Assembly: GCA_002329565.1 (NCBI GenBank)
Contig: DCTM01000007.1
Span: forward strand, 1,121-14,977
Direction: 5' to 3'
DNA: 13,857 nt
Source: Firmicutes bacterium UBA1440
GTDB taxonomy: Bacteria > Bacillota > Clostridia > Peptostreptococcales > Anaerovoracaceae
Notes under the pieces: generated by a model
Database searches by the model: none
Seen by the model: the letters and a program-made list of their open reading frames with translations, nothing else
What the model was told of the DNA's origin: nothing
Shown: piece after piece, positions 1 to 9,395 of the stretch
How the letters are laid out: the number at the start of each line of letters is the position of its first letter
Position numbering within the stretch: the stretch's first letter is position 1
Translations under genes and position numbers: made by a program

Positions 1-602
1 GCGAACTCGACCTCAAAGAGCGCAGATATAACATCATGTGCATGTATATCCATCTGCTGATAGCCAAGTATGCTGTTGCCAGCGTCATTGTTTGCTTTTG
101 CGTAGTTGCGGAAATTGACAATGTTTTTATTGATTAGCGGGTATGTGTTAGGCTTGGATTCAAGCTTAGTGTTATCTGCGCTTAGGCTTGCGACGTATTT
201 ACCAATTAACACATAATCAAGTTCTTTGTTATTGGTAAAATCCCAAAAACACCAAGGAAGATAAAAGTTAGGGTGTTGATACTTTGATATTTTAGTCTGT
301 TTGAATGCTGATCCCGCTCGACGGTATATGTAAAATTTCGGGATTTTTATGAATACATTCCCATACACATCCTGTACTTCTTCAATGTCTCTATAGATTG
401 GCATAGAATCAAAGTCATTTTGTACTATTGCACCATCTTGACCGACATTAGCAACTAGATCAACCGATGCGTCTGTACGTGTCATGACAGGGGATGACGT
501 TTTGTCCCAATATACACCCATGATTAATTTATCATCATTTAGGACATTCAAGATTTCATTGACTTGCGTTTCCGTTGCTATATTAAAAGCTGTGACTGCC
601 AT
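1..602 (-). CDS. Probable receptor-binding tail protein, C-type-lectin-type family (partial, cut at window edge)
   Basis: Two hundred complete codons from the ATG at 602 (GAGGAGGTAG upstream), then the frame runs off the left edge. It begins MAVTAFNIATETQVNEILNV. The order IMGVYWDKTSSPVMTRTDAS, then FDSMPIY, VFIKIPKFYIYRR, YVLIGKYVASLS, LESKPNTYPL, INKNIVNFRNYAKAN and ISALFEVEFA follows the common gut-phage tail protein layout (Y-G-V-x-W-D, R-T-D-A, I-P-K-F-Y, I-G-K-Y, an S-x-x-G/N-x-x-P segment, R-x-x-A, and a final L-x-x-x-E-F). Full-length members have a C-type-lectin/sulfatase-modifying-factor-type fold, some of them targets of diversity-generating retroelements. The variable C-terminal part would lie beyond the window. 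Family recognition is by pattern, not by search. Confidence 0.7.
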   Translation of the reverse strand, partial: MAVTAFNIATETQVNEILNVLNDDKLIMGVYWDKTSSPVMTRTDASVDLVANVGQDGAIVQNDFDSMPIYRDIEEVQDVYGNVFIKIPKFYIYRRAGSAFKQTKISKYQHPNFYLPWCFWDFTNNKELDYVLIGKYVASLSADNTKLESKPNTYPLINKNIVNFRNYAKANNDAGNSILGYQQMDIHAHDVISALFEVEF

Positions 603-869
603 TTAAACTACCTCCTCGTACATGATTTGAGTTTTGCCATCTTTGATTTGTAAACCCATTTTATAAGTCTTGTTGTTGTCAACATCTTTGACCTTATGCG
701 GCATTGTGCTTTCGTCACCCAAATCGTTAATTTGTTGCTTAACTGATATGCCAGTATCAGGGTCTTTAACAATATCTGATTTTGTCTCAGGATAAAAAAC
801 ATCGGGGTATGTAGCAGTGCCCTCCCCATCATACACAGGCGGTCTTATTCTACCTTTATAGTCTGCCAT
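603..869 (-). CDS. Small uncharacterised tail-fibre-region protein
   Basis: An 88-aa protein starting at the ATG in a TAATG overlap, with GGAGGTAAT inside the last codons of the upstream gene. The sequence ADYKGRIRPPVYDGEG, FYPETKSDIVKD, ISVKQQINDLGDEST and then DVDNNKTYKMGLQIKDGK with ending IMYEEVV reads like a short connector: a proline-rich start, one helix and a strand pair. Similar KxYKxGxQxKDGKxQxxYEEV ends occur in phage fibre proteins, but I cannot name a family. Its last codons form the GAGGAGGTAG ribosome site of the next gene, whose ATG follows the TAA with no gap. Confidence 0.65.
   Translation of the reverse strand: MADYKGRIRPPVYDGEGTATYPDVFYPETKSDIVKDPDTGISVKQQINDLGDESTMPHKVKDVDNNKTYKMGLQIKDGKTQIMYEEVV
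608..617 (-). promoter_or_regulatory. Ribosome site GAGGAGGTAG for the partial receptor-binding gene
   Basis: It is formed by the Glu-Glu-Val-Val end codons of the 88-aa gene and supports the ATG at 602 as the start, directly after the TAA. Confidence 0.8.
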
Positions 870-1720
870 TATATTACCTCCATCCACAGTCCACGAGTCG
901 GCTGTGATTCTCCACAGGTTATCAGTGATTCTATTGACCCCGAAGCTTCGGCAGCGGCGCCGACTGCTATGTCTTTTGCTTCAAGCGTGGCCTGTTTGGC
1001 CGCCATTATCGGGGTCATCATATTTCCGATAGTTTCTATAGCTGCATGTGCGGACTGCGAATAGCCACGAGCCTCATTCGCCCATCCTTCTGCGTTCTCC
1101 GCCTGTGCGGCGGCTTGGTTTTTGCTCTCTTCGGCCTGGCCTGCATATGTGCCCGCTTGACCTGCGTAATACGATGATTGCTCTGCTGCTGAACCCGCAT
1201 CTCTTTTGCTATCTGCAGCACTGTCCTCGGACTCTTTTGCCTTCTGTTGTGACTCTAAAGCTTGGGCGGCTTTTGTGGCGACATCAGCCTCGACTACAAT
1301 GTTTTTCGCTTCTGTCACTCTTGCTTCCATCTGTACAAACTCGCTCGGCAAAGGGTCTGGATATTCAGCAGTAGAGCCTATCGACGCGCCGACACGCAGA
1401 TAGGTTGGACTGGATCCCCATTTTTCTAACGTACCGTTGAAAGCGCGGATTTGAATTTGCACATATCCAGAGTCTAGGAGATGCGTTTCCTCAACCGTCC
1501 ATGTAAGTTGTATATATTCTCCTACTGTTTTGTCGAGGTCAATGATGTCCTTTTTGTCTCCAAATTGCGTGTCCAGTTTAAAAGAAAAACCAGACATATC
1601 TATGCCGTTGTAGGTTTTGGGCAGCTTAAATACCACTCTTTCTACCCGGTGATCTCCTATATATCCGATGGTTTCTTCGTCTTTTGGTACTACGAGTTTC
1701 CTGCCTATTACTTCAATCAT
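869..1720 (-). CDS. BppU-like baseplate/tail protein with Ala-rich coiled coil
   Basis: A 283-aa protein. The start at 1720 is set by the GGAGGTGAT ribosome site; the frame is open a few codons further but without one. Residues 1-115 resemble the N-terminal beta-sandwich of BppU-type baseplate upper proteins: ERVVFKLPKTYNGIDMSGFS, FKLDTQFGDKKDIIDLD, a QLTWTV strand, then GYVQIQIRAFNG and KWGSSPTYLRVG. Residues about 125-260 are an Ala/Gln/Glu-rich, heptad-like helix with repeated AGQA (YYAGQAGTYAGQAEESK), which should form a trimeric coiled-coil stalk. The C-terminus TRGLWMEVI closely resembles that of the upstream dockerin protein. It probably links the tip to receptor-binding parts. Confidence 0.78.
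   Translation of the reverse strand: MIEVIGRKLVVPKDEETIGYIGDHRVERVVFKLPKTYNGIDMSGFSFKLDTQFGDKKDIIDLDKTVGEYIQLTWTVEETHLLDSGYVQIQIRAFNGTLEKWGSSPTYLRVGASIGSTAEYPDPLPSEFVQMEARVTEAKNIVVEADVATKAAQALESQQKAKESEDSAADSKRDAGSAAEQSSYYAGQAGTYAGQAEESKNQAAAQAENAEGWANEARGYSQSAHAAIETIGNMMTPIMAAKQATLEAKDIAVGAAAEASGSIESLITCGESQPTRGLWMEVI
873..881 (-). promoter_or_regulatory. Ribosome site GGAGGTAAT deciding the start of the 88-aa gene
   Basis: It lies in the codons for Met-Glu-Val-Ile at the end of the BppU-like gene and sets the start to the ATG at 869 in a TAATG overlap. Confidence 0.8.
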
Positions 1721-2703
1721 GGTATCACCTCCAACCACAACCCCGCTTCCGGCTCTTCCGTTCCGAGCGTTACGACATGTAATTGCATCGCACCATCGAT
1801 CATTCCAGTGATTTCTGCCTTGACGTCGGCCGATATAAACTCCCAGACCTGATTTCCGAGTGCTTTAAGTCCTTCTTTGGTCTCGAAGCTCCAGCTGCCA
1901 TCACTGTAATAGATGGCGTAATATTCGGCGCCTTCTACGCCGCCGATCGGTAGAGCGGGACCACCGAGTGCGCGGGCTATGATAGCGTCATAGTCCTCTT
2001 GTGTTATTTCACCATCCAGATTTACGTCCCCAATTGCGACATGAGATCGATACCAATCTTCGGACGATAAAGAGCCAGTGATATAATTAGCGACTTTAAG
2101 CGCATCCGTTGAGGTAATGAAACCGTCATTGTCGCAATCTCCGAAATTCTCGACCTTCTCAATACGGACGATGCCCCGCACCGAAAGCGCTTCAATGCCA
2201 GCTTCCACCTTCCCGATTGCCTGATTGATAGTATCTGTCGGAGCAATTGCTGATCTGGATGAGGGCTTTTCGTATCCAGTTAGAGCCATCATAGCTGTTG
2301 TGTACAGCGTATCGAAGTATTGTTTTAGTTTGGCTTTAATATTACTCCATGTGATTTTCTTTGTTCGATTATTTTCGGACGTATCCGTAAACGGCACAGT
2401 ATCATCGTCCGCGATCTCGCCGGTTGGCGCATTTTTTATAAATGTCTCATACGCATGCAAGGGAGCCCAGTTTGTTGTGTCTGTATCAGGAGTTGTCGAA
2501 ACCCCCGAGTGCGTCACAATGCAAAAATACGATACGCCATCATACACCACGACATCGATTATCTCTGAAGTATTACTGTAGCTGCCCTCGGATACCCACG
2601 CTCCACGATTGTTATATGTCTTGCCCTCTGCGACAATATTAAGCGCGCGTCCGATTGCTTCATCTATCTGCGCGCGTGTATATGTCGATTTAAATAATGC
2701 CAT
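1717..2703 (-). CDS. Tail fibre/tip protein with carbohydrate-binding-like module and type I dockerin
   Basis: A 328-aa protein with GGGGTGAT just before the ATG. The N-terminal helix YTRAQIDEAIGRALNIV is typical of phage tail proteins. Residues 34-82 (AWVSEGSYSNTSEIIDVVVY, DGVSYFCIVTHSG, TTPDTDTTNWAPL) match the CBM5/12-like pattern common in phage adhesins, with aromatic Trp36, Tyr54, Tyr59 and Trp79. Residues 141-170 contain the tail-fibre phrase LTGYEKPSSRSAI and INQAIGKVEAGIE. Residues about 187-249 are a dockerin with two calcium loops: D189, D191, D193, D200 and D226, N228, D230, D237. A C-terminal beta region YYAIYYSDGSWSFETKEG and an EAGLWLEVIP end follow. Its stop overlaps the next ATG (ATGA). 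The role in host attachment is inferred. Confidence 0.82.
   Translation of the reverse strand: MALFKSTYTRAQIDEAIGRALNIVAEGKTYNNRGAWVSEGSYSNTSEIIDVVVYDGVSYFCIVTHSGVSTTPDTDTTNWAPLHAYETFIKNAPTGEIADDDTVPFTDTSENNRTKKITWSNIKAKLKQYFDTLYTTAMMALTGYEKPSSRSAIAPTDTINQAIGKVEAGIEALSVRGIVRIEKVENFGDCDNDGFITSTDALKVANYITGSLSSEDWYRSHVAIGDVNLDGEITQEDYDAIIARALGGPALPIGGVEGAEYYAIYYSDGSWSFETKEGLKALGNQVWEFISADVKAEITGMIDGAMQLHVVTLGTEEPEAGLWLEVIP
1724..1732 (-). promoter_or_regulatory. Ribosome site GGAGGTGAT deciding the BppU-like start
   Basis: A nine-base anti-SD match inside the codons for the final Leu-Glu-Val-Ile of the dockerin protein. It places the start at 1720 in an ATGA overlap rather than further upstream, and suggests coupled translation. 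Confidence 0.8.
1957..2145 (-). other. Dockerin type I domain within the tail protein
   Basis: Two F-hand repeats separated by a linker: GDCDNDGFITSTDALKVANY and GDVNLDGEITQEDYDAIIAR. Calcium positions 1, 3, 5 and 12 are D, D, D, D in the first and D, N, D, D in the second, with Gly at 6 and Ile at 8 in both, and an xLG-type helix end (YITG, ALGG). Positions 10-11 of the first loop are Ser-Thr, as in many cohesin-recognising dockerins; in the second they are Gln-Glu. Dockerins bind cohesins on cellulosomal scaffoldins. Isolated dockerins also occur in non-cellulosomal proteins. Confidence 0.88.
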
Positions 2704-2713
2704 ACCATCACCC

Positions 2714-4786
2714 CTAGTAATAAATCACAATGCAGCCGTCGCCGCCCTTGCCACCAGCAGATCCAGATCCACCCTGTCCAGGGTAACTGCTCGGATACTT
2801 CAGATTGTGACCACCGCCACCGCCGCCATGACCTCCATGACCGCCTTGTCCATAGTTTGCAGCGTCGTCTGCGTCTACTGCGTCAGCTCCATTTCCGCCA
2901 GATCCGCCAGTCGGTACATAACTGCCATACGTGCTTACGTACGCAATTGTGATGTTGCCACCATTGCCACCGTTAGCCCCTGCAGCTGCGCCACCTCCGC
3001 GTCCACCGAAACCGTATGTGTTATATGTCAAACTTATTTCATTTGCACCATTTGCACCGGGCGTGAATGTAACGCCTTTGTAAACAATACTCGGGCCGGG
3101 GATTGTCACATCATTTTCCCAAGATGGCCAGGCCGTCTGGAATGCGGATCCTCTTCCTCCGGCCAATCCGGGGTCTCCATCTGCCCCGAGCGTGAGGCCT
3201 GTTTTAGGCTCTTGGTAACCGTCGGGATAGAACCTTCCGAGTGCTGAGGAATAGATTCCAAATGTTGTGTCGCCACCGGCAAGTCCAGGATTACCCTTCG
3301 CACCGCCGTCACCGCCTGTACCGCATACGAAATCAAAAGGCGCTCCAGGCGTTACAGTGAGATTGAGTTCAAATATCAATCCACCGCTTCCATTTACACC
3401 TCCTGATCCGCCTTCTCCCGGGCCACCCGAAGATGATTCCGCGGGCGTTCCGTCTTCGCCATCATATCCGCCGCTTCCGCCATCTCCTGCACCGAAAAGT
3501 GCAACCCTGATCTTTGTCACGCCTTCGGGCACTTCCCACGTTCCGGATCCGGTGAGTAAGACGTGATGCGTAAACCCACTTATCAAACTCGGCGGAGTAT
3601 ACCCAACTAAAAACTCACTCATGGCTCGCAATTCTGAGCGACCTACAGAGATCGGTGACATACTTTTAAGCGTAGCCTTAACTAACTGCTCCGTATAAGG
3701 ATGTACAACATTGACAACATCGCCAGGTCTTTCGGATCCGAATACCACCTCTGCCCGTATGGACTTAGCCACAGATAGGTAATCAAAAAGCCGCTGAGCT
3801 ATATCAACGGCATTGTAAGGATTTATTAAAGTGTTCGATGTTACCGATTTGACTACATCGTCAACGCTGTCTGTCGGTGTCGTGCCATGCGTTATGATTC
3901 GTTTTATATGGACATATTTCTTGCCTTTGATTGTAACCAGGCCTGCGCCTGTAAATTTGACGTGGTTTACACCTGATTCAATAATGGCCCCGTTTGTAAT
4001 GGAGTAATCGTGGTATGGCTCGCTAAAATAAATAGTCTCTGTAGTGATGGATGAGGATTCGTATAAAGTGACTTCCTCAGCAGACTCAATAAAATTGTGC
4101 TCTGTTACTTGCACAGCCGTGCAAGGAATCTTATCCTCCACAATCGCCCCAATAAAGACTCTGTCCTTGCCGAATGTTCCGGTTTCAATTTCACTTAGCT
4201 TTGTGATTCTCAAGGTTCCGTCAGCAGCATTTCTAACAGCGGCTCCTGTCGCCATGAGAAACATTTGAAGGTTGTTGCGCCGGGTCGAAAAAGGCAGATA
4301 TCCATATATCTGCAACGTAGTAATGTCACTGTCGACTGTGTACGGCACTCCGCCCATTATATCTGCTAAGACATCTCCCGCGGCATCTCCCGAATAAAGC
4401 CCGCCTAGGTGTTTGGTCTGATCCAAAAGTCGAATTGCGGAGTACAATGTGAAAGCATATTCGTACTTCCCTATTTGCTGTAATGCATGTAAAAAATATT
4501 TCGCTATCAGAATATTATTGTGAAAAAAAGTCCCCGGAGCATTTGCATTAAACTCCGGAGTAACGGGCTCTGGCTTTGCACATAATTCATACCCGTCAGC
4601 TGTGACAAGCCAGTCATCTTCACCCTGATCAACTGCAATAAATCTCTCCGGCAGATCACCGTGAATTATCGGGAGATAAAGAGAATCGACAGACAATGTT
4701 TCGCCTACCATCGAATGCTTCATATCAAGCGTTGCGGACACGATCTCATTCTCGTACTCATTTCCGTTGTATATTAGCTTTACCAT
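2714..4786 (-). CDS. Tail hub-like protein fused to a glycine-rich C-terminal domain
   Basis: A 690-aa protein. The start at 4786 has GAGGAG seven bases upstream; an in-frame TTG at 4801 is a weaker alternative. Residues 1-400 look like a tail hub/Tal-type N-terminus: paired strands at the start (KLIYNGNEYENEIVSATLDM), a TFFHNNILIAKYFLHALQQ segment, GDAAGDVLADIMGG, and strand repeats up to ELRAMSEFLVGYTPP. No peptidase motif was seen. Residues about 408-690 are a glycine-rich domain that opens with HHVLLTGSGTWEVPEGVTKI and RVALFGAGDGG, the pattern of phage glycine-rich tail domains, then long G-G-x runs (HGGHGGGGGGHN) and ends GGDGCIVIYY. Such domains can form packed polyglycine helices in phage adhesins, suggesting a receptor-contact role. 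The DNA here is GC-richer than its neighbours because of glycine codons. Confidence 0.8.
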   Translation of the reverse strand: MVKLIYNGNEYENEIVSATLDMKHSMVGETLSVDSLYLPIIHGDLPERFIAVDQGEDDWLVTADGYELCAKPEPVTPEFNANAPGTFFHNNILIAKYFLHALQQIGKYEYAFTLYSAIRLLDQTKHLGGLYSGDAAGDVLADIMGGVPYTVDSDITTLQIYGYLPFSTRRNNLQMFLMATGAAVRNAADGTLRITKLSEIETGTFGKDRVFIGAIVEDKIPCTAVQVTEHNFIESAEEVTLYESSSITTETIYFSEPYHDYSITNGAIIESGVNHVKFTGAGLVTIKGKKYVHIKRIITHGTTPTDSVDDVVKSVTSNTLINPYNAVDIAQRLFDYLSVAKSIRAEVVFGSERPGDVVNVVHPYTEQLVKATLKSMSPISVGRSELRAMSEFLVGYTPPSLISGFTHHVLLTGSGTWEVPEGVTKIRVALFGAGDGGSGGYDGEDGTPAESSSGGPGEGGSGGVNGSGGLIFELNLTVTPGAPFDFVCGTGGDGGAKGNPGLAGGDTTFGIYSSALGRFYPDGYQEPKTGLTLGADGDPGLAGGRGSAFQTAWPSWENDVTIPGPSIVYKGVTFTPGANGANEISLTYNTYGFGGRGGGAAAGANGGNGGNITIAYVSTYGSYVPTGGSGGNGADAVDADDAANYGQGGHGGHGGGGGGHNLKYPSSYPGQGGSGSAGGKGGDGCIVIYY

Positions 4787-4787
4787 A

Positions 4788-5147
4788 TCATAGCTCCTCA
4801 AAGACCAGTGGAGGTAATTGATACATAGTTACGACGCCGCCTTTTGTAATGGCCGACTCCTTTCTAGGTTCGGAGATCGGCTCCGTCAAAAAAGTATCGC
4901 CCCCGATTGTAAGAAATACCAATCCCGAGCGATACTCAGACAAGATCATATCTGTAATGTTCTCTGTGGTCGGATTAAACCGCACGGTCACAATCCTCTT
5001 GCTTTTCCCCAGATCAACGTGTTTTGCGTCATCCATTGTATATTTATCTGGGAGCCCTTTGCGATACCTGTACGCGATTGTGATACCCGCCTTGTGGACA
5101 TGTGCCGATATGTCTTTTGAGTTCATTCTTACGGTTGTACTAATCAT
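4788..5147 (-). CDS. Uncharacterised small tail-tip protein (position of distal tail protein)
   Basis: A 119-aa protein one base after the tape measure stop. Its ribosome site CGGAGGTG is made of the tape measure's last codons. I do not recognise the family. The sequence is beta-rich: MISTTVRMNSKDISAHVHKA, ITIAYRYRKG, DLGKSKRIVTVRFNPTT, LVFLTIGGDTF, then VVTMYQLPPLVFEEL. It has no signal peptide or membrane segment. By position it takes the place of the distal tail (Dit) gene, but it is about half the usual size and lacks the galectin-like second domain, so it may be a minimal Dit-like ring or another tip component. That role is inferred from position alone. Confidence 0.65.
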   Translation of the reverse strand: MISTTVRMNSKDISAHVHKAGITIAYRYRKGLPDKYTMDDAKHVDLGKSKRIVTVRFNPTTENITDMILSEYRSGLVFLTIGGDTFLTEPISEPRKESAITKGGVVTMYQLPPLVFEEL

Positions 5148-5148
5148 G

Positions 5149-8064
5149 CTACACCTCCGTCAGATCAATGCCGGCGAGTGCACTTTCTTCGGCTAAATAC
5201 GATCTGATTACTTTCGCAACCGGCCTGCCTTCAAGGTCAACATTGATATCAAGATGCAGTTGTATCGGCTGACCGTTCCCATACTGCCCTAAAGCTGATG
5301 ACACCGCGTTAACGATCTGATCTCCGATTTGTGCTGTGCTTTCCGGCAGTGATACTCTTGTTGCACTATCCGCTGCGTAAGCGGCCTCAGCGAACGTCCT
5401 CTCAAGCTCTGCTTGCTTTTGCTCAGCCCCCAAGATCAAACCCTCAAAGTAATCTTCCGAGGCTTCCATCGCTTTTCGTGAGGGAGAGTGCATGTCCATA
5501 GCGTCTCGGTATGCAGCGTTCGCTCTCTCGGCAGCCTTCTTGTACGCCTTTTCCAGCTCTGGGATCATCGAGAGGACTTGATCTATATATCCTCGCATAG
5601 TATCAATTGCGGCTTCTTGGGCTGCAGCTTTATTATTTAATGCATTTACCGCACCCGAGGTCTTATCCGATAGCTCCTCCATCTTTTTATCAAAGTCAGT
5701 TGTCGCTTCGGCCATCGTGTGAGAGAGAGATTTTTTACCCTCGTCGACTCGCTTCATGCTCTTGATGATTTTGGATATTTCCTCATCAGTAGCAATTGAG
5801 AGTCCTGCTAATATTGCTGCGGATTCCGTTGAGCCATCCGACAAGCTTTTTACAAGCTCATCCACGCCCTCGACTTGTCTCTTTGATAATTTAGTGAGGT
5901 TGGTAGTATAGTTATCAAGCCATCTCATCTGGCTTTCTAGCGCTTTCTGGATCTCAGCAGCAGACTTTATAACAGAGTTGTCCATCTCTTCCCAAAGCCC
6001 GATTTGAGATGTTATGCTATCGTATGCAGCCTGATAAGCCTCGTTATATGCAGTCTGGAGAGCGTCGACTTCCGCCGTCAGATCAGCCACTATGGCCTGT
6101 GCCTTTTTCTCGGCGTCAGACAGACCGATCGTGGAGACTGCGGCGGCTCCGAGGATTTCGGAAAGTTCATCAATCGAAAGCCCGAATGTTTCGGCCGCCT
6201 CTTCTGCGGTTAGAAATCCGTTGTTCACGAGTCCGCGGAGAGCGTCTTCGGCAGCCGCTGTGTTTTCTTCCACTTCGGACATTTTCCCAGCAGTGTCGCC
6301 AAGTATTTTCCTGAGAGCTTCAACGCTCTCGCTTGCAAGTTTTAACTCGTCGACAGACTCTTGACCGGGCAGAAAAATAGTAGTGCTTTCTCCCTTGGCG
6401 GCCCTCTCTTGCACTTCCGCGAGGTACTCAAGCGCATTATTGAGTTTATTCTGCGCTTCTTCATATTCCGCCGTGGCCTCAGCTGCTTTTTTTCGCGCCT
6501 CCGCACCGAGATTCTCGCGCACAATTGATTCGAGCCGGTACTGATTATATTCTTGCTGGGACTTCGTTGCCCTTTCGAGCGCCCCAACCTGTTCATCAAA
6601 GGTTCCGTTTTCGATATCCAGTGCGGTTACCACTCCGCCAGACGCTTCGATCAGATCCTTTTTGGTCTTCTCAAGTTCGGCGTTCTTAGCAGCCGCGGAT
6701 TCTTTGCTCAGGTTCGTGTTTTGAAGCTCAATGCTCAGTTCTCGGTACTTCTCAATCAGATCAAGGACGCCAGACGTATCGGACATCTCTTGAGTCAAAC
6801 CTTCGATTCTTTCGGCTGCCGTCTTGCTGTCTCCGATTAGTCCGTACAGCGCTTCGCCAACAAAGGCTTTCATTCTTTGGCCGAGGCGGTCTATTGCATC
6901 GCCGGCAGCATCGAGAGCCTTCACGGCATCCTCGGACATAACTGCCCCGTTATTTTTCGCTTCGTCGGTAAGTCTTTTAAGCCCGTCCGCGCCCTCTTTT
7001 ATCAAAGGATTGAGATCCATTGCGGACTTTCCGAGCAGCTCCATCGCAAGAGCGTCGCGCTCGGTTTCGTTGCCGATCTCACCCAAGGCGCCGATGGCAT
7101 CGATAAATACGTCAGACGCCGACCGCAGAGATCCATCCGCGTCGGAGAAAGCCACTCCGAGCTTTTTGAAAGCTTCTGTTTGAGCTTCCGTGCCCTGCTG
7201 TGCTTCGCTCATCGATCTGGTAAGGCGTGCAACGGAGGATTGGATTGTTCCAAACGTCGCGCCCGGATCTGCGTATTTTAAGGCTTGCAGCTCCTCTACG
7301 TTTTGACCGGTTACGTCGGCCATTTCTTGGAGTTCTCCCGCCGTATCAAACGCCGCAGATGCAAGCTCTTTTATCTTCGATGTGACCCATGACAGAGCCT
7401 GAGTTGCTATATTAGCAAAAAAGCCACCGGCAAATATCTTCGCAAGCAGATTGCTCTCTTCAGCAGCATCCTTTACTTCCTTACCGTATTCGTCGATAGA
7501 CTTTGCGCACTTGTCCGTGGATTTTTGGGCTTCGTCCAGGTACCTATCGTTTTTCTGTATTTCATCGTTTAAACTATTTAAACGAATTTTCGCCGAGTTA
7601 AGTTGTTGCTGCCAGTTATTTACCCCTTTTGCGGCAGCAACTTCTCCAGCAGTTGCTTCTTCGAGCTCTTTCTGGAGCTTATTTAATTCCGCAACGAGCT
7701 TTTTCTGCTCATCGGTGGTATCATTTGTTGAGTTCTTTAATCCATTAAGGGCGGTTTCGGTTGCGGTTATTTTCGCTCTGATCGATTCTGCTCTTTCTGC
7801 ATAGGCTTGTTGCGCACCCTGCGCGTTTTTAAGAGCTGCTTCGAGCTCCTTTACCTTATCTGCCTGCTTGTCATAGACCTTTTGCAGAGCGTCACCTTTG
7901 GCAGTGAGGGCTTCCATGCTGTTTGCCTGACCCTTGAATTGTGATTCAACTAGCTTTAATTCTGAGTCAAGAGTTTTCAACTCAGAGTTGACTTGGGTTA
8001 TCTTCTGCTTGTACTCTTGTTCACCTTCGATAGCTAAACGTGTGGATATTGTTCTTACAGCCAT
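5149..8064 (-). CDS. Tail tape measure protein
   Basis: A 971-aa protein that sets tail length and travels through the tube ahead of DNA. At about 1.5 angstrom per residue the tail would be near 145 nm, an estimate from the general rule. Residues 1-200 are a long charged coiled coil with heptad-like Leu/Glu/Lys. Residues about 205-240 (LLAKIFAGGFFANIA onward) are hydrophobic and could be membrane active. The following region (FDTAGELQEMADVTGQNVEE, then ALGEIGNETERDALAMELLG) is the conserved tape measure domain. More coiled coil follows to about 850. HSPSRKAMEASEDYFEGLILG (about 859) is the usual C-terminal motif, then a beta tail LHLDINVDLEGRPVAKVI. No peptidase or lytic transglycosylase motif was seen. 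The start has GGGGGCGGAG and a TAATG junction. Confidence 0.93.
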   Translation of the reverse strand: MAVRTISTRLAIEGEQEYKQKITQVNSELKTLDSELKLVESQFKGQANSMEALTAKGDALQKVYDKQADKVKELEAALKNAQGAQQAYAERAESIRAKITATETALNGLKNSTNDTTDEQKKLVAELNKLQKELEEATAGEVAAAKGVNNWQQQLNSAKIRLNSLNDEIQKNDRYLDEAQKSTDKCAKSIDEYGKEVKDAAEESNLLAKIFAGGFFANIATQALSWVTSKIKELASAAFDTAGELQEMADVTGQNVEELQALKYADPGATFGTIQSSVARLTRSMSEAQQGTEAQTEAFKKLGVAFSDADGSLRSASDVFIDAIGALGEIGNETERDALAMELLGKSAMDLNPLIKEGADGLKRLTDEAKNNGAVMSEDAVKALDAAGDAIDRLGQRMKAFVGEALYGLIGDSKTAAERIEGLTQEMSDTSGVLDLIEKYRELSIELQNTNLSKESAAAKNAELEKTKKDLIEASGGVVTALDIENGTFDEQVGALERATKSQQEYNQYRLESIVRENLGAEARKKAAEATAEYEEAQNKLNNALEYLAEVQERAAKGESTTIFLPGQESVDELKLASESVEALRKILGDTAGKMSEVEENTAAAEDALRGLVNNGFLTAEEAAETFGLSIDELSEILGAAAVSTIGLSDAEKKAQAIVADLTAEVDALQTAYNEAYQAAYDSITSQIGLWEEMDNSVIKSAAEIQKALESQMRWLDNYTTNLTKLSKRQVEGVDELVKSLSDGSTESAAILAGLSIATDEEISKIIKSMKRVDEGKKSLSHTMAEATTDFDKKMEELSDKTSGAVNALNNKAAAQEAAIDTMRGYIDQVLSMIPELEKAYKKAAERANAAYRDAMDMHSPSRKAMEASEDYFEGLILGAEQKQAELERTFAEAAYAADSATRVSLPESTAQIGDQIVNAVSSALGQYGNGQPIQLHLDINVDLEGRPVAKVIRSYLAEESALAGIDLTEV

Positions 8065-8600: not shown

Positions 8601-8620
8601 AGGGCGAGTTTCCTCGCCCT
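8601..8620 (-). terminator. GC-rich hairpin after major tail gene: probable partial terminator or mRNA stabiliser
   Basis: On the minus strand the 8-bp perfect stem AGGGCGAG / CTCGCCCT closes a GAAA loop. The stem starts inside the TAG stop of the major tail gene and is followed by TTCCCTTTTATAT, then the ribosome site of the chaperone gene. The tail is T-rich but interrupted, so I infer an attenuator that lets some transcripts through, or a 3' end protecting the tail-tube message, rather than a complete stop. This is the only spacer of more than 15 bases in the gene series, once the frameshift is counted. Confidence 0.65.
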
Positions 8621-9395
8621 AGAATATAACTGCGATATTGTGAGCAGCTGCAACATCTGCGACCGTGTATTTACCTGCTGAGATAGATGTCTTGGACTCC
8701 ACGCCATTGTCGTACAAGGCGGTTGGGGTTCCGGAAACCTGGAGTACGAAGTCTTCTCCGGCTGCAACCATTGTTGTGCCGATCGGAGTAGCGCTCTCAC
8801 CTACGCCTGCACCCTGAACCTGTACATTCACAGGATACCATGTCGCAACATTGAGCTTATTCTGGATGTAAGCCTTTGCGGCAGACTCTGCGGAAAACTC
8901 CTTGACATATCTCCACTTGCCGTATTCAGGCTTGTATACAGTGAAGGTAACAGCGGTCGTTTCAAGAGTGAATGAATTTCCTTTTGTTTGAGACGTTTCA
9001 TCACCCATCTTCGCTTTTACTTTGGGGTAGTAAAATGCGCGATATTTCTTCACTCCATTGACCATCAATACCTGATAGTAGCCAATACCACCAAACGGAG
9101 GTGTATCACTATCGCCATTTCCGAGTTCGTCATCGACGATATCAGCACCGTAAATCGTCCCCATCTGTGCGATTGTGAGATTATCTGTTTCTGTAGTTAT
9201 TGTACCGCTGGAAAATTCCGAAACGTCTTCTGCAAGCACGTTATCAGCGTAAAGTTGCCCCTCGGCGTACTGTATAGATAGATCTGCCCTGACTGCTTTC
9301 CCCAGTGCAAAGCCAGAACCGTATGTAGGCAACTCAGATGCGGACTCAGTTACTACCGGAGCCCAGCAAGGATACGCAAGTCCGATTTTTGCCAT
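8619..9395 (-). CDS. Major tail tube protein (phi13-type)
   Basis: A 258-aa protein that polymerises into the tail tube. Residues 1-170 show the tube fold of the phi13-type major tail proteins: an N-terminal IGLAYPCWAPV strand, GKAVRADLSIQYAEGQLYADN, a DNVLAEDVSEFSSGTIT strand pair, GIGYYQVLMVNGVKKYRAFYYPKVK, and FTLETTAVTFTVY. Residues about 185-258 form an appended domain ending KYTVADVAAAHNIAVIF, resembling the strand ends of bacterial Ig-like/InlB-type repeats, as often decorate tail tubes. A GGAGGT ribosome site precedes the ATG. The stop codon is part of a strong hairpin that separates it from the chaperone gene, consistent with this being the most abundantly expressed tail protein. Confidence 0.88.
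   Translation of the reverse strand: MAKIGLAYPCWAPVVTESASELPTYGSGFALGKAVRADLSIQYAEGQLYADNVLAEDVSEFSSGTITTETDNLTIAQMGTIYGADIVDDELGNGDSDTPPFGGIGYYQVLMVNGVKKYRAFYYPKVKAKMGDETSQTKGNSFTLETTAVTFTVYKPEYGKWRYVKEFSAESAAKAYIQNKLNVATWYPVNVQVQGAGVGESATPIGTTMVAAGEDFVLQVSGTPTALYDNGVESKTSISAGKYTVADVAAAHNIAVIF

Follow-up and report, generated by a model that had tools for sequence, protein, structure and literature searches.

On fibre-degrading bacteria, cellulosomes are held together by the very tight pairing of cohesin with dockerin. On the phage side, adhesion proteins at the tail tip whose distal modules can be exchanged are a known class. In the dockerin literature, positions 11 and 12 of the dockerin repeat are given as the pivotal cohesin contacts (PMC5301203; PMC5141474 for type II dockerins), and certain type I dockerins in which one pair is atypical are said there to bind in a single mode and to be directed to the cell surface (PMC5301203). 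Dockerins have been mentioned in phages: part of a phage protein is likened to 2wz8, there called a dockerin carbohydrate-binding module (PMC5967307), and gene 40 of Vibrio phage VvAW1 is credited with BLAST homology to ‘dockerin type I’, with no tail function given (PMC3558961). UniProt lists phage proteins called ‘Dockerin type 1’ (Myoviridae sp. ctCL221 and ctagO6, Siphoviridae sp. ctgN495), which the dockerin described below matches in structure (BFVD, probability 0.99–1.00, E = 0.07–0.11). In the accessible portions of the open-licence literature (including PMC9377139, PMC4022735, PMC12484212 and PMC8199421) we found no report of a phage-tail dockerin bound, or proposed to bind, to a cohesin, and no description of dockerins on the tail-region proteins of several phage types.

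We analysed a stretch of 13,857 nucleotides (the window; G000:C33:1121-14977), which lies within an 18,069-base contig composed of phage genes in the genome of the assigned host (G000). Terminase-like and portal-like genes, read from their sequences, occupy one contig end; the head and tail genes come next, all in minus orientation, and include all of the features below. The gene order deduced from PHROGs is major tail protein (8619..9395; phrog_88, E = 8.8e-20), a 971-aa tape measure protein (5149..8064; several tape measure families, for example phrog_8462, E = 6.5e-31), a 119-aa protein, a 695-aa tail/baseplate-type protein with a glycine-rich C-terminus (2714..4801; phrog_32744 of unknown function, E = 2e-101, and phrog_863, tail fiber assembly, E = 1.2e-8), the 328-aa protein that carries the dockerin (1717..2703), a 289-aa tail-type protein (869..1738; phrog_25888 of unknown function, E = 1.4e-17, plus weaker tail families), a 94-aa protein and the start of another tail protein. 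The 695-aa gene is the upstream neighbour of the 328-aa gene and served as our synteny marker; the 289-aa gene is its downstream neighbour, and a scan of IMG/VR with the latter protein gave no relative. The 328-aa and 289-aa proteins end almost alike, with GLWLEVIP (window 1717-1760) and GLWMEVI (window 869-900), respectively. Further downstream, a tail protein that by eye is lectin-like/formylglycine-enzyme-like (L024:437-964 and L024:1099-1722, both minus, reaching into window 3-602) is interrupted by N runs, one of them near its end, and an HNH-like gene lies after it at the end of the contig. The tail protein looks like a possible target of a diversity-generating retroelement, and the N runs may correspond to variable or withheld sequence.

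The 328-aa protein, delimited by its reading frame, Pfam, a syntenic homologue and one full-length relative (L025 and P0001, see below), is built of several parts. Residues 1–44 (2572..2703; MALFKSTYTRAQIDEAIG...) form an N-terminal anchor, recognized by comparison with the corresponding loci of the host family. Residues 50–79 (2467..2556) are a weak CBM5/12-like stretch, and the module of this kind proposed in an earlier note on this DNA shrinks to that, as it scores 14.1 bits in Pfam against a curated cut-off of 26.2, which does not place it in family 5/12. Residues 83–186 (2146..2457) comprise the phage tail-fibre motif ADDDTVPFTDTSENNRTKKITWSNIKAKLKQYFDTLY, which recurs in P0002, in phage records and in L056 and L057, together with a presumed helical stalk. 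The stalk helices appear only in a poor model of the whole protein, which we set aside (pLDDT 36, from too shallow an alignment). The type I dockerin (residues 188–243; 1975..2142) is thus internal, with the stalk on one side and on the other a C-terminal region (residues 247–328 and the stop; 1717..1965) that ends in GLWLEVIP, a position that we count against adhesion. Pfam detects no enzyme domain in the protein, and its N-terminus (MALFKSTYTRAQ), as read from the sequence, shows no hydrophobic leader; with its place in a tail operon, it does not look like a cellulosomal enzyme subunit.

The dockerin itself is confirmed as genuine, on a protein encoded among tail-tip genes. Dockerin_1 (PF00404) matches residues 188–243 with 35.7 bits (E = 1e-8, cut-off 22.9), and the domain model, with the loop–helix–helix–loop–helix fold of this family predicted, matches known dockerin structures such as 4uyp_B (the ScaB dockerin in complex with the cohesin ScaC) and 1ohz_B (C. 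thermocellum). The score and the fold led us to drop the reading as a chance EF-hand, and they bear out the identification of a type I dockerin in a tail protein made from the letters alone, for which a structure prediction of this region had been called for. The calcium positions proposed at the same time (Asp189, Asp191, Asp193 and Asp200; Asp226, Asn228, Asp230 and Asp237) are all eight correct: the first loop (residues 189–200, DCDNDGFITSTD; 2104..2139) and the second (residues 226–237, DVNLDGEITQED; 1993..2028), 37 residues apart, both have Asp or Asn at positions 1, 3, 5 and 12, and their intactness counts for adhesion. By domain family and fold, the module is therefore akin to the type I dockerins of clostridial cellulosomes; it differs from them in lying inside a phage tail protein with no enzyme domain and no leader seen, in having one atypical recognition pair and in that no cohesin was found in the assigned host.

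As read from the sequence, Ser198-Thr199 in the first loop occupy the positions described as key cohesin contacts of type I dockerins, and Gln235-Glu236 are at the equivalent place in the second, so that the two halves are asymmetric and the second pair is the atypical one. Asymmetry in itself is nothing unusual: of the 84 compared domains with two loops found, 71 have unlike pairs. Ser-Thr occurs in only three of the 204 loops of the compared set and is therefore not a background default; a single pair is nevertheless weak evidence. We take Ser-Thr to be a recognition pair of C. thermocellum, for which the title of entry 2ccl is our sole backing; the Lys-Arg pair of the dockerins of the same species is Ala-Asn here, which counts against adhesion.

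Among 5.8 billion proteins searched, the sole full-length relative of the 328-aa protein is P0001 (319 aa, 88% identical), and the dockerin part alone as a query again returned only P0001 (candidates preselected by length and shared words); a scan of IMG/VR with the whole protein gave no relative. Identity to P0001 is uneven along the chain, with 44/44 residues in the anchor (1–44), 24/38 in the CBM-like part (45–82), which is the least conserved, 101/104 in the motif and stalk (83–186), 59/60 in the dockerin (187–246) and 62/82 in the C-terminal part (247–328). That the dockerin was conserved while residues 45–82 and 247–328 diverged counts for adhesion, albeit as weak evidence because the two proteins are close relatives. 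More distant loci show what may take the place of the dockerin. On an IMG/VR contig (L025), genes for the major tail protein, the tape measure protein, a 122-aa and a 697-aa protein precede the counterpart of the 328-aa protein, in the order seen in the window. This counterpart is 66% identical over residues 1–126 and continues with collagen-like repeats, the contig being cut off within its gene. In the host family, 11 of 349 genomes, counting G000, have a homologue of the 695-aa protein; a scan of this protein against genome contigs found none. At the ten other family loci we read the following genes by eye, over the first 420 residues of each. The start of the next gene is much like the anchor in four of them (L046, L047, L048 and L049; for example MAIYKSKYTGSQVDELL), more weakly so in three (L050, L051 and L054) and unlike it in L052, L053 and L055. 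Lectin-like proteins were read at this place in L050 and nearby in L051, and other sequences elsewhere. In L050:3168-5995 and L051:8997-11942, a lectin-like protein and a YMDD reverse transcriptase lie downstream of the 695-aa homologue, as seen by eye; this is probably a diversity-generating retroelement at the same place.

In none of these ten other genomes does the contig with the 695-aa homologue match Dockerin_1; a match exists in only two of them (G298 and G317), once each and away from the contig of the tail gene. The dockerin of the window therefore occupies a place where its relatives carry something else. An anchor-like start, a position directly downstream of the 695-aa homologue and a different distal part are found together in L025 and, as judged by eye, in seven of the ten family loci, and it is in this similar N-terminal start and varied distal part that the 328-aa protein resembles tail-tip proteins with exchangeable modules, the module here being a dockerin. 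Fold, gene context and the different modules of the relatives carry this description; the source of the module and its position on the virion we infer from them.

To consider this source, we compared the window dockerin with 121 domains that score at least 15 bits with our own dockerin profile (65 from bacterial loci and 56 viral). The nearest is found at the C-terminus of a 913-aa protein of the family member G383 (score 99, 25/57 identical), the best 19 of the 121 are all bacterial and the top viral domain scores 69. This suggests the host family as the source of the dockerin, and does no more than suggest it because the set is biased, the bacterial domains being nearly all from that family and the viral ones picked by the motif GDVNGDG. 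The G383 protein combines three cohesins with its C-terminal dockerin, and two single-cohesin proteins encoded next to it end in a hydrophobic segment and a basic tail, so that they read as surface anchors to which the dockerin of the 913-aa protein looks able to fasten the scaffoldin. Its recognition pairs, as read from the sequence (L182), are Ala-Lys and Ile-Thr, compared with Ser-Thr and Gln-Glu in the window. The whole forms a compact cohesin–dockerin cluster (L182:1894-7490; G383:C22) that also includes a 252-aa dockerin protein.

The window is not the only phage sequence with a dockerin among its tail genes. Scanning IMG/VR for GDVNGDG gave at least 120 stretches, of which 80 were listed, corresponding to 80 open reading pieces from 75 loci. 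We sent 48 of these and the window to Pfam (32 were omitted by eye, as they had no calcium-loop pattern at the motif or were L134 repeats), and Dockerin_1 was among the matches listed for 39 of the 49; L178 and L179, which repeat the contigs of L097 and L129, were dropped before counting. One such protein, of 361 aa (L097/L129, also on two more contigs), has a C-terminal dockerin (50.8 bits) and matches the tail family phrog_6779; before its gene come one that by eye resembles a tape measure gene, one for a minor tail protein (phrog_20385) and one for a 413-aa protein with no PHROG match. A 233-aa protein (L089, 46.2 bits) has a tail-fibre repeat common to named phages, and the same protein in L069 stands at the edge of the locus beside tape-measure-like and tail-like genes. 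Two long proteins (L123, 1109 aa, 36.0 bits; L087, 1277 aa, 42.5 bits) come immediately after a tape-measure-like gene, and L101 encodes a 217-aa protein with a dockerin of 31.8 bits. All of these proteins (L097, L089, L101, L123 and L087) carry the dockerin at, or close to, the very C-terminal end. Like that of the window, these dockerins are above the Dockerin_1 cut-off within tail gene series; unlike it, they are C-terminal, with a loop spacing of 34 (L097 and L089) instead of 37.

These phages amount to fewer independent cases than they appear to because their proteins are related: L089 and L097 are 30% identical over a shared 193 residues, L087 is a homologue of L123 and L101 has some 120 residues in common with L087. 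BLASTP kinship within L089/L097/L069 and L087/L123 thus ruled out our initial description of all of them as unrelated. The window protein itself matches only the L097 and L089 types (residues 168–237 and 178–237, that is, the dockerin and up to about 20 preceding residues), with no BLASTP match at E = 0.01 to L101 or to L123/L087. Another arrangement is seen in phage-contig proteins of about 900–1000 aa, in which a dockerin-like loop pair lies mid-protein (L062, L070, L078, L083, L088, L098, L112, L114, L127 and L130; lengths taken where complete), with 46 residues between the loops in most and 56 in L062, on contigs of up to 458,729 bases; L062 and L130, the sole pair compared, are homologous. 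Some of the scanned viral pieces are not tail proteins, with one peptidase C10 and three Glyco_hydro_108 pieces; the latter (L084, L106 and L126, by eye) are phage lysins in which GDVNGDG belongs to an EF-hand-like loop. The L097 tail protein found no match among genome contigs, and what L069 DNA matches in two Clostridioides and three Streptococcus phages is confined to short pieces, too little to name a host. The 992-aa and 1109-aa proteins have no GenBank phage match at E = 1e-10, and the same holds for L130. The window dockerin has one weak match among GenBank phage records (MT837882, E = 0.2). Eight ‘Bacteriophage sp.’ records (MT835815, MT836339, MT836518, MT836697, MT837251, MT837761, MT839337 and MT839470) are matched by L097, L089 and one bacterial dockerin taken together, and just three of them by the L097 protein; we did not count them as phages, as the five inspected (L222–L226: MT835815, MT836697, MT836339, MT836518 and MT837761) are UNVERIFIED human faecal scaffolds with apparently bacterial chromosomal genes.

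We may then ask where a cohesin partner could come from. The assigned host genome (1,480,088 bases, 68 contigs) has the window dockerin as its only dockerin and no match to the cohesin family PF00963, an absence that stops short of proof in a genome 90.61% complete. A second profile (A5), built from five cohesins of G383, in the same family, finds at E ≤ 1 twelve places in G383, seven in G031 and eight in G029 (one at E = 0.47). In G000 its one match (E = 0.13) lies inside translation factor IF-2, as does its one match (E = 0.08) in G001, a member of the same genus in which no cohesin was found; we rejected both as IF-2 on the evidence of Pfam for G001 and of likeness to the G001 protein for G000. 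The earlier proposal that the virion could use a cohesin of its own host as a receptor is thus not supported by a partner in either search, unless one has escaped both profiles by its divergence or belongs to the tenth of the genome that is missing. The condition that the note set for its refutation also took in the relatives of the host, and these do have cohesins: neither G000 nor G001 yielded one, but cohesins were found in 15 of 99 genomes of relatives and, across the host family, at E ≤ 0.001 in 51 of 345 genomes (43 over the Pfam cut-off) and 32 of 92 genera. Dockerin matches occur in 82 of 341 family genomes (81 over the cut-off). We dropped a misbinned contig as an explanation, since the contig is closest in composition to G000 (47.1% against 46.3% G+C; tetranucleotide correlation 0.862, the best of 12 genomes sampled, followed by G001 with 0.78 and G055 with 0.774), an argument that is weak as binning itself uses composition and the sampling is limited (four of the 12 genomes were represented by their phage locus alone, L204 and L214 are all N, and L217 and L218 were left out).

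We tentatively favour the view, at a probability of about 0.4, that the 328-aa protein is a tail-tip protein with exchangeable modules whose dockerin serves as an outward accessory adhesion module for a putative cohesin-type partner. It draws its support from the C-terminal dockerins of the other phages and from the exchange slot. It is also quite possible that the dockerin is a calcium-stabilized structural module with no cohesin partner, whether as a calcium-locked linker that joins the stalk to the C-terminal region or as an adaptor within the protein; this is favoured because no cohesin was found in the assigned host, or in its genus-mate G001, and because the dockerin is internal, and the atypical recognition residues of the second loop and the mid-protein loop pairs of L062, L088 and L130 agree with it, but the dockerins of L097, L089, L101, L123 and L087, at or near the C-terminus, link nothing. 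The two cohesin-bearing genomes (G048 and G317) among the ten others with a 695-aa homologue are no clear excess over the family rate of 51 in 345, which we count against adhesion.

The same two genomes bear on the idea that the phage infects cohesin-bearing members of the family and uses the dockerin for true receptor binding, the assembled genome being either not its main host or lacking the genes. Cohesins in 51 of 345 family genomes, the apparently anchored single-cohesin proteins of G383 and the homologues of the 695-aa protein in 11 of 349 family genomes, G048 and G317 included, would fit; yet G048 is devoid of any dockerin, G317 has a single one on another contig, the composition of the window contig is closest to G000 and neither G000 nor G001 yielded a cohesin, so that we hold this to be improbable. 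It is more improbable still that the dockerin fold is a generic scaffold for another partner, such as a virion protein, a glycan or a surface protein: its recurrence in other phages without identified hosts is compatible with this, but nothing positive points to any particular partner. A bolder form of the adhesion reading appears unlikely to us, namely that the virion copies a scaffoldin-fastening dockerin and uses it as a reversible, calcium-dependent plug for the cellulosome-type surface that fibre-degrading neighbours, or an unsampled host, display, other tailed phages having taken up dockerins likewise and more than once.

In the accessory adhesion reading that we prefer, the short N-terminal anchor would fix the protein to the tail and the stalk would carry the distal part outward, where the slot is filled by a type I dockerin that probably has its source in the host family. 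This dockerin, binding two calcium ions, would be displayed as an accessory adhesion module. The most plausible place for its partner, a putative module of cohesin type, would be on neighbours in the same family that bear cohesins, or on the scaffolds that these have shed on plant fibre; the assigned host is a less plausible source of the partner, as none was found there. The virion could thus be held reversibly where its host grows, and host-specific binding would fall to another tail-tip protein, for example the lectin-like protein further downstream. The interpretation of the earlier note is partly supported: the virion may have a foothold on cohesin-bearing neighbours, and the calcium-stabilized spacer that the note gave as a simpler option may apply instead.

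If virions do use cohesin–dockerin pairing, cohesins would be candidate phage attachment sites, and new binding specificities could be drawn from phage dockerins as a natural source. Whether or not there is binding, dockerins on the tail-region proteins of several phage types are a testable pattern. The dockerin may let viruses cling to neighbouring cells, or it may be merely a sturdy spacer.
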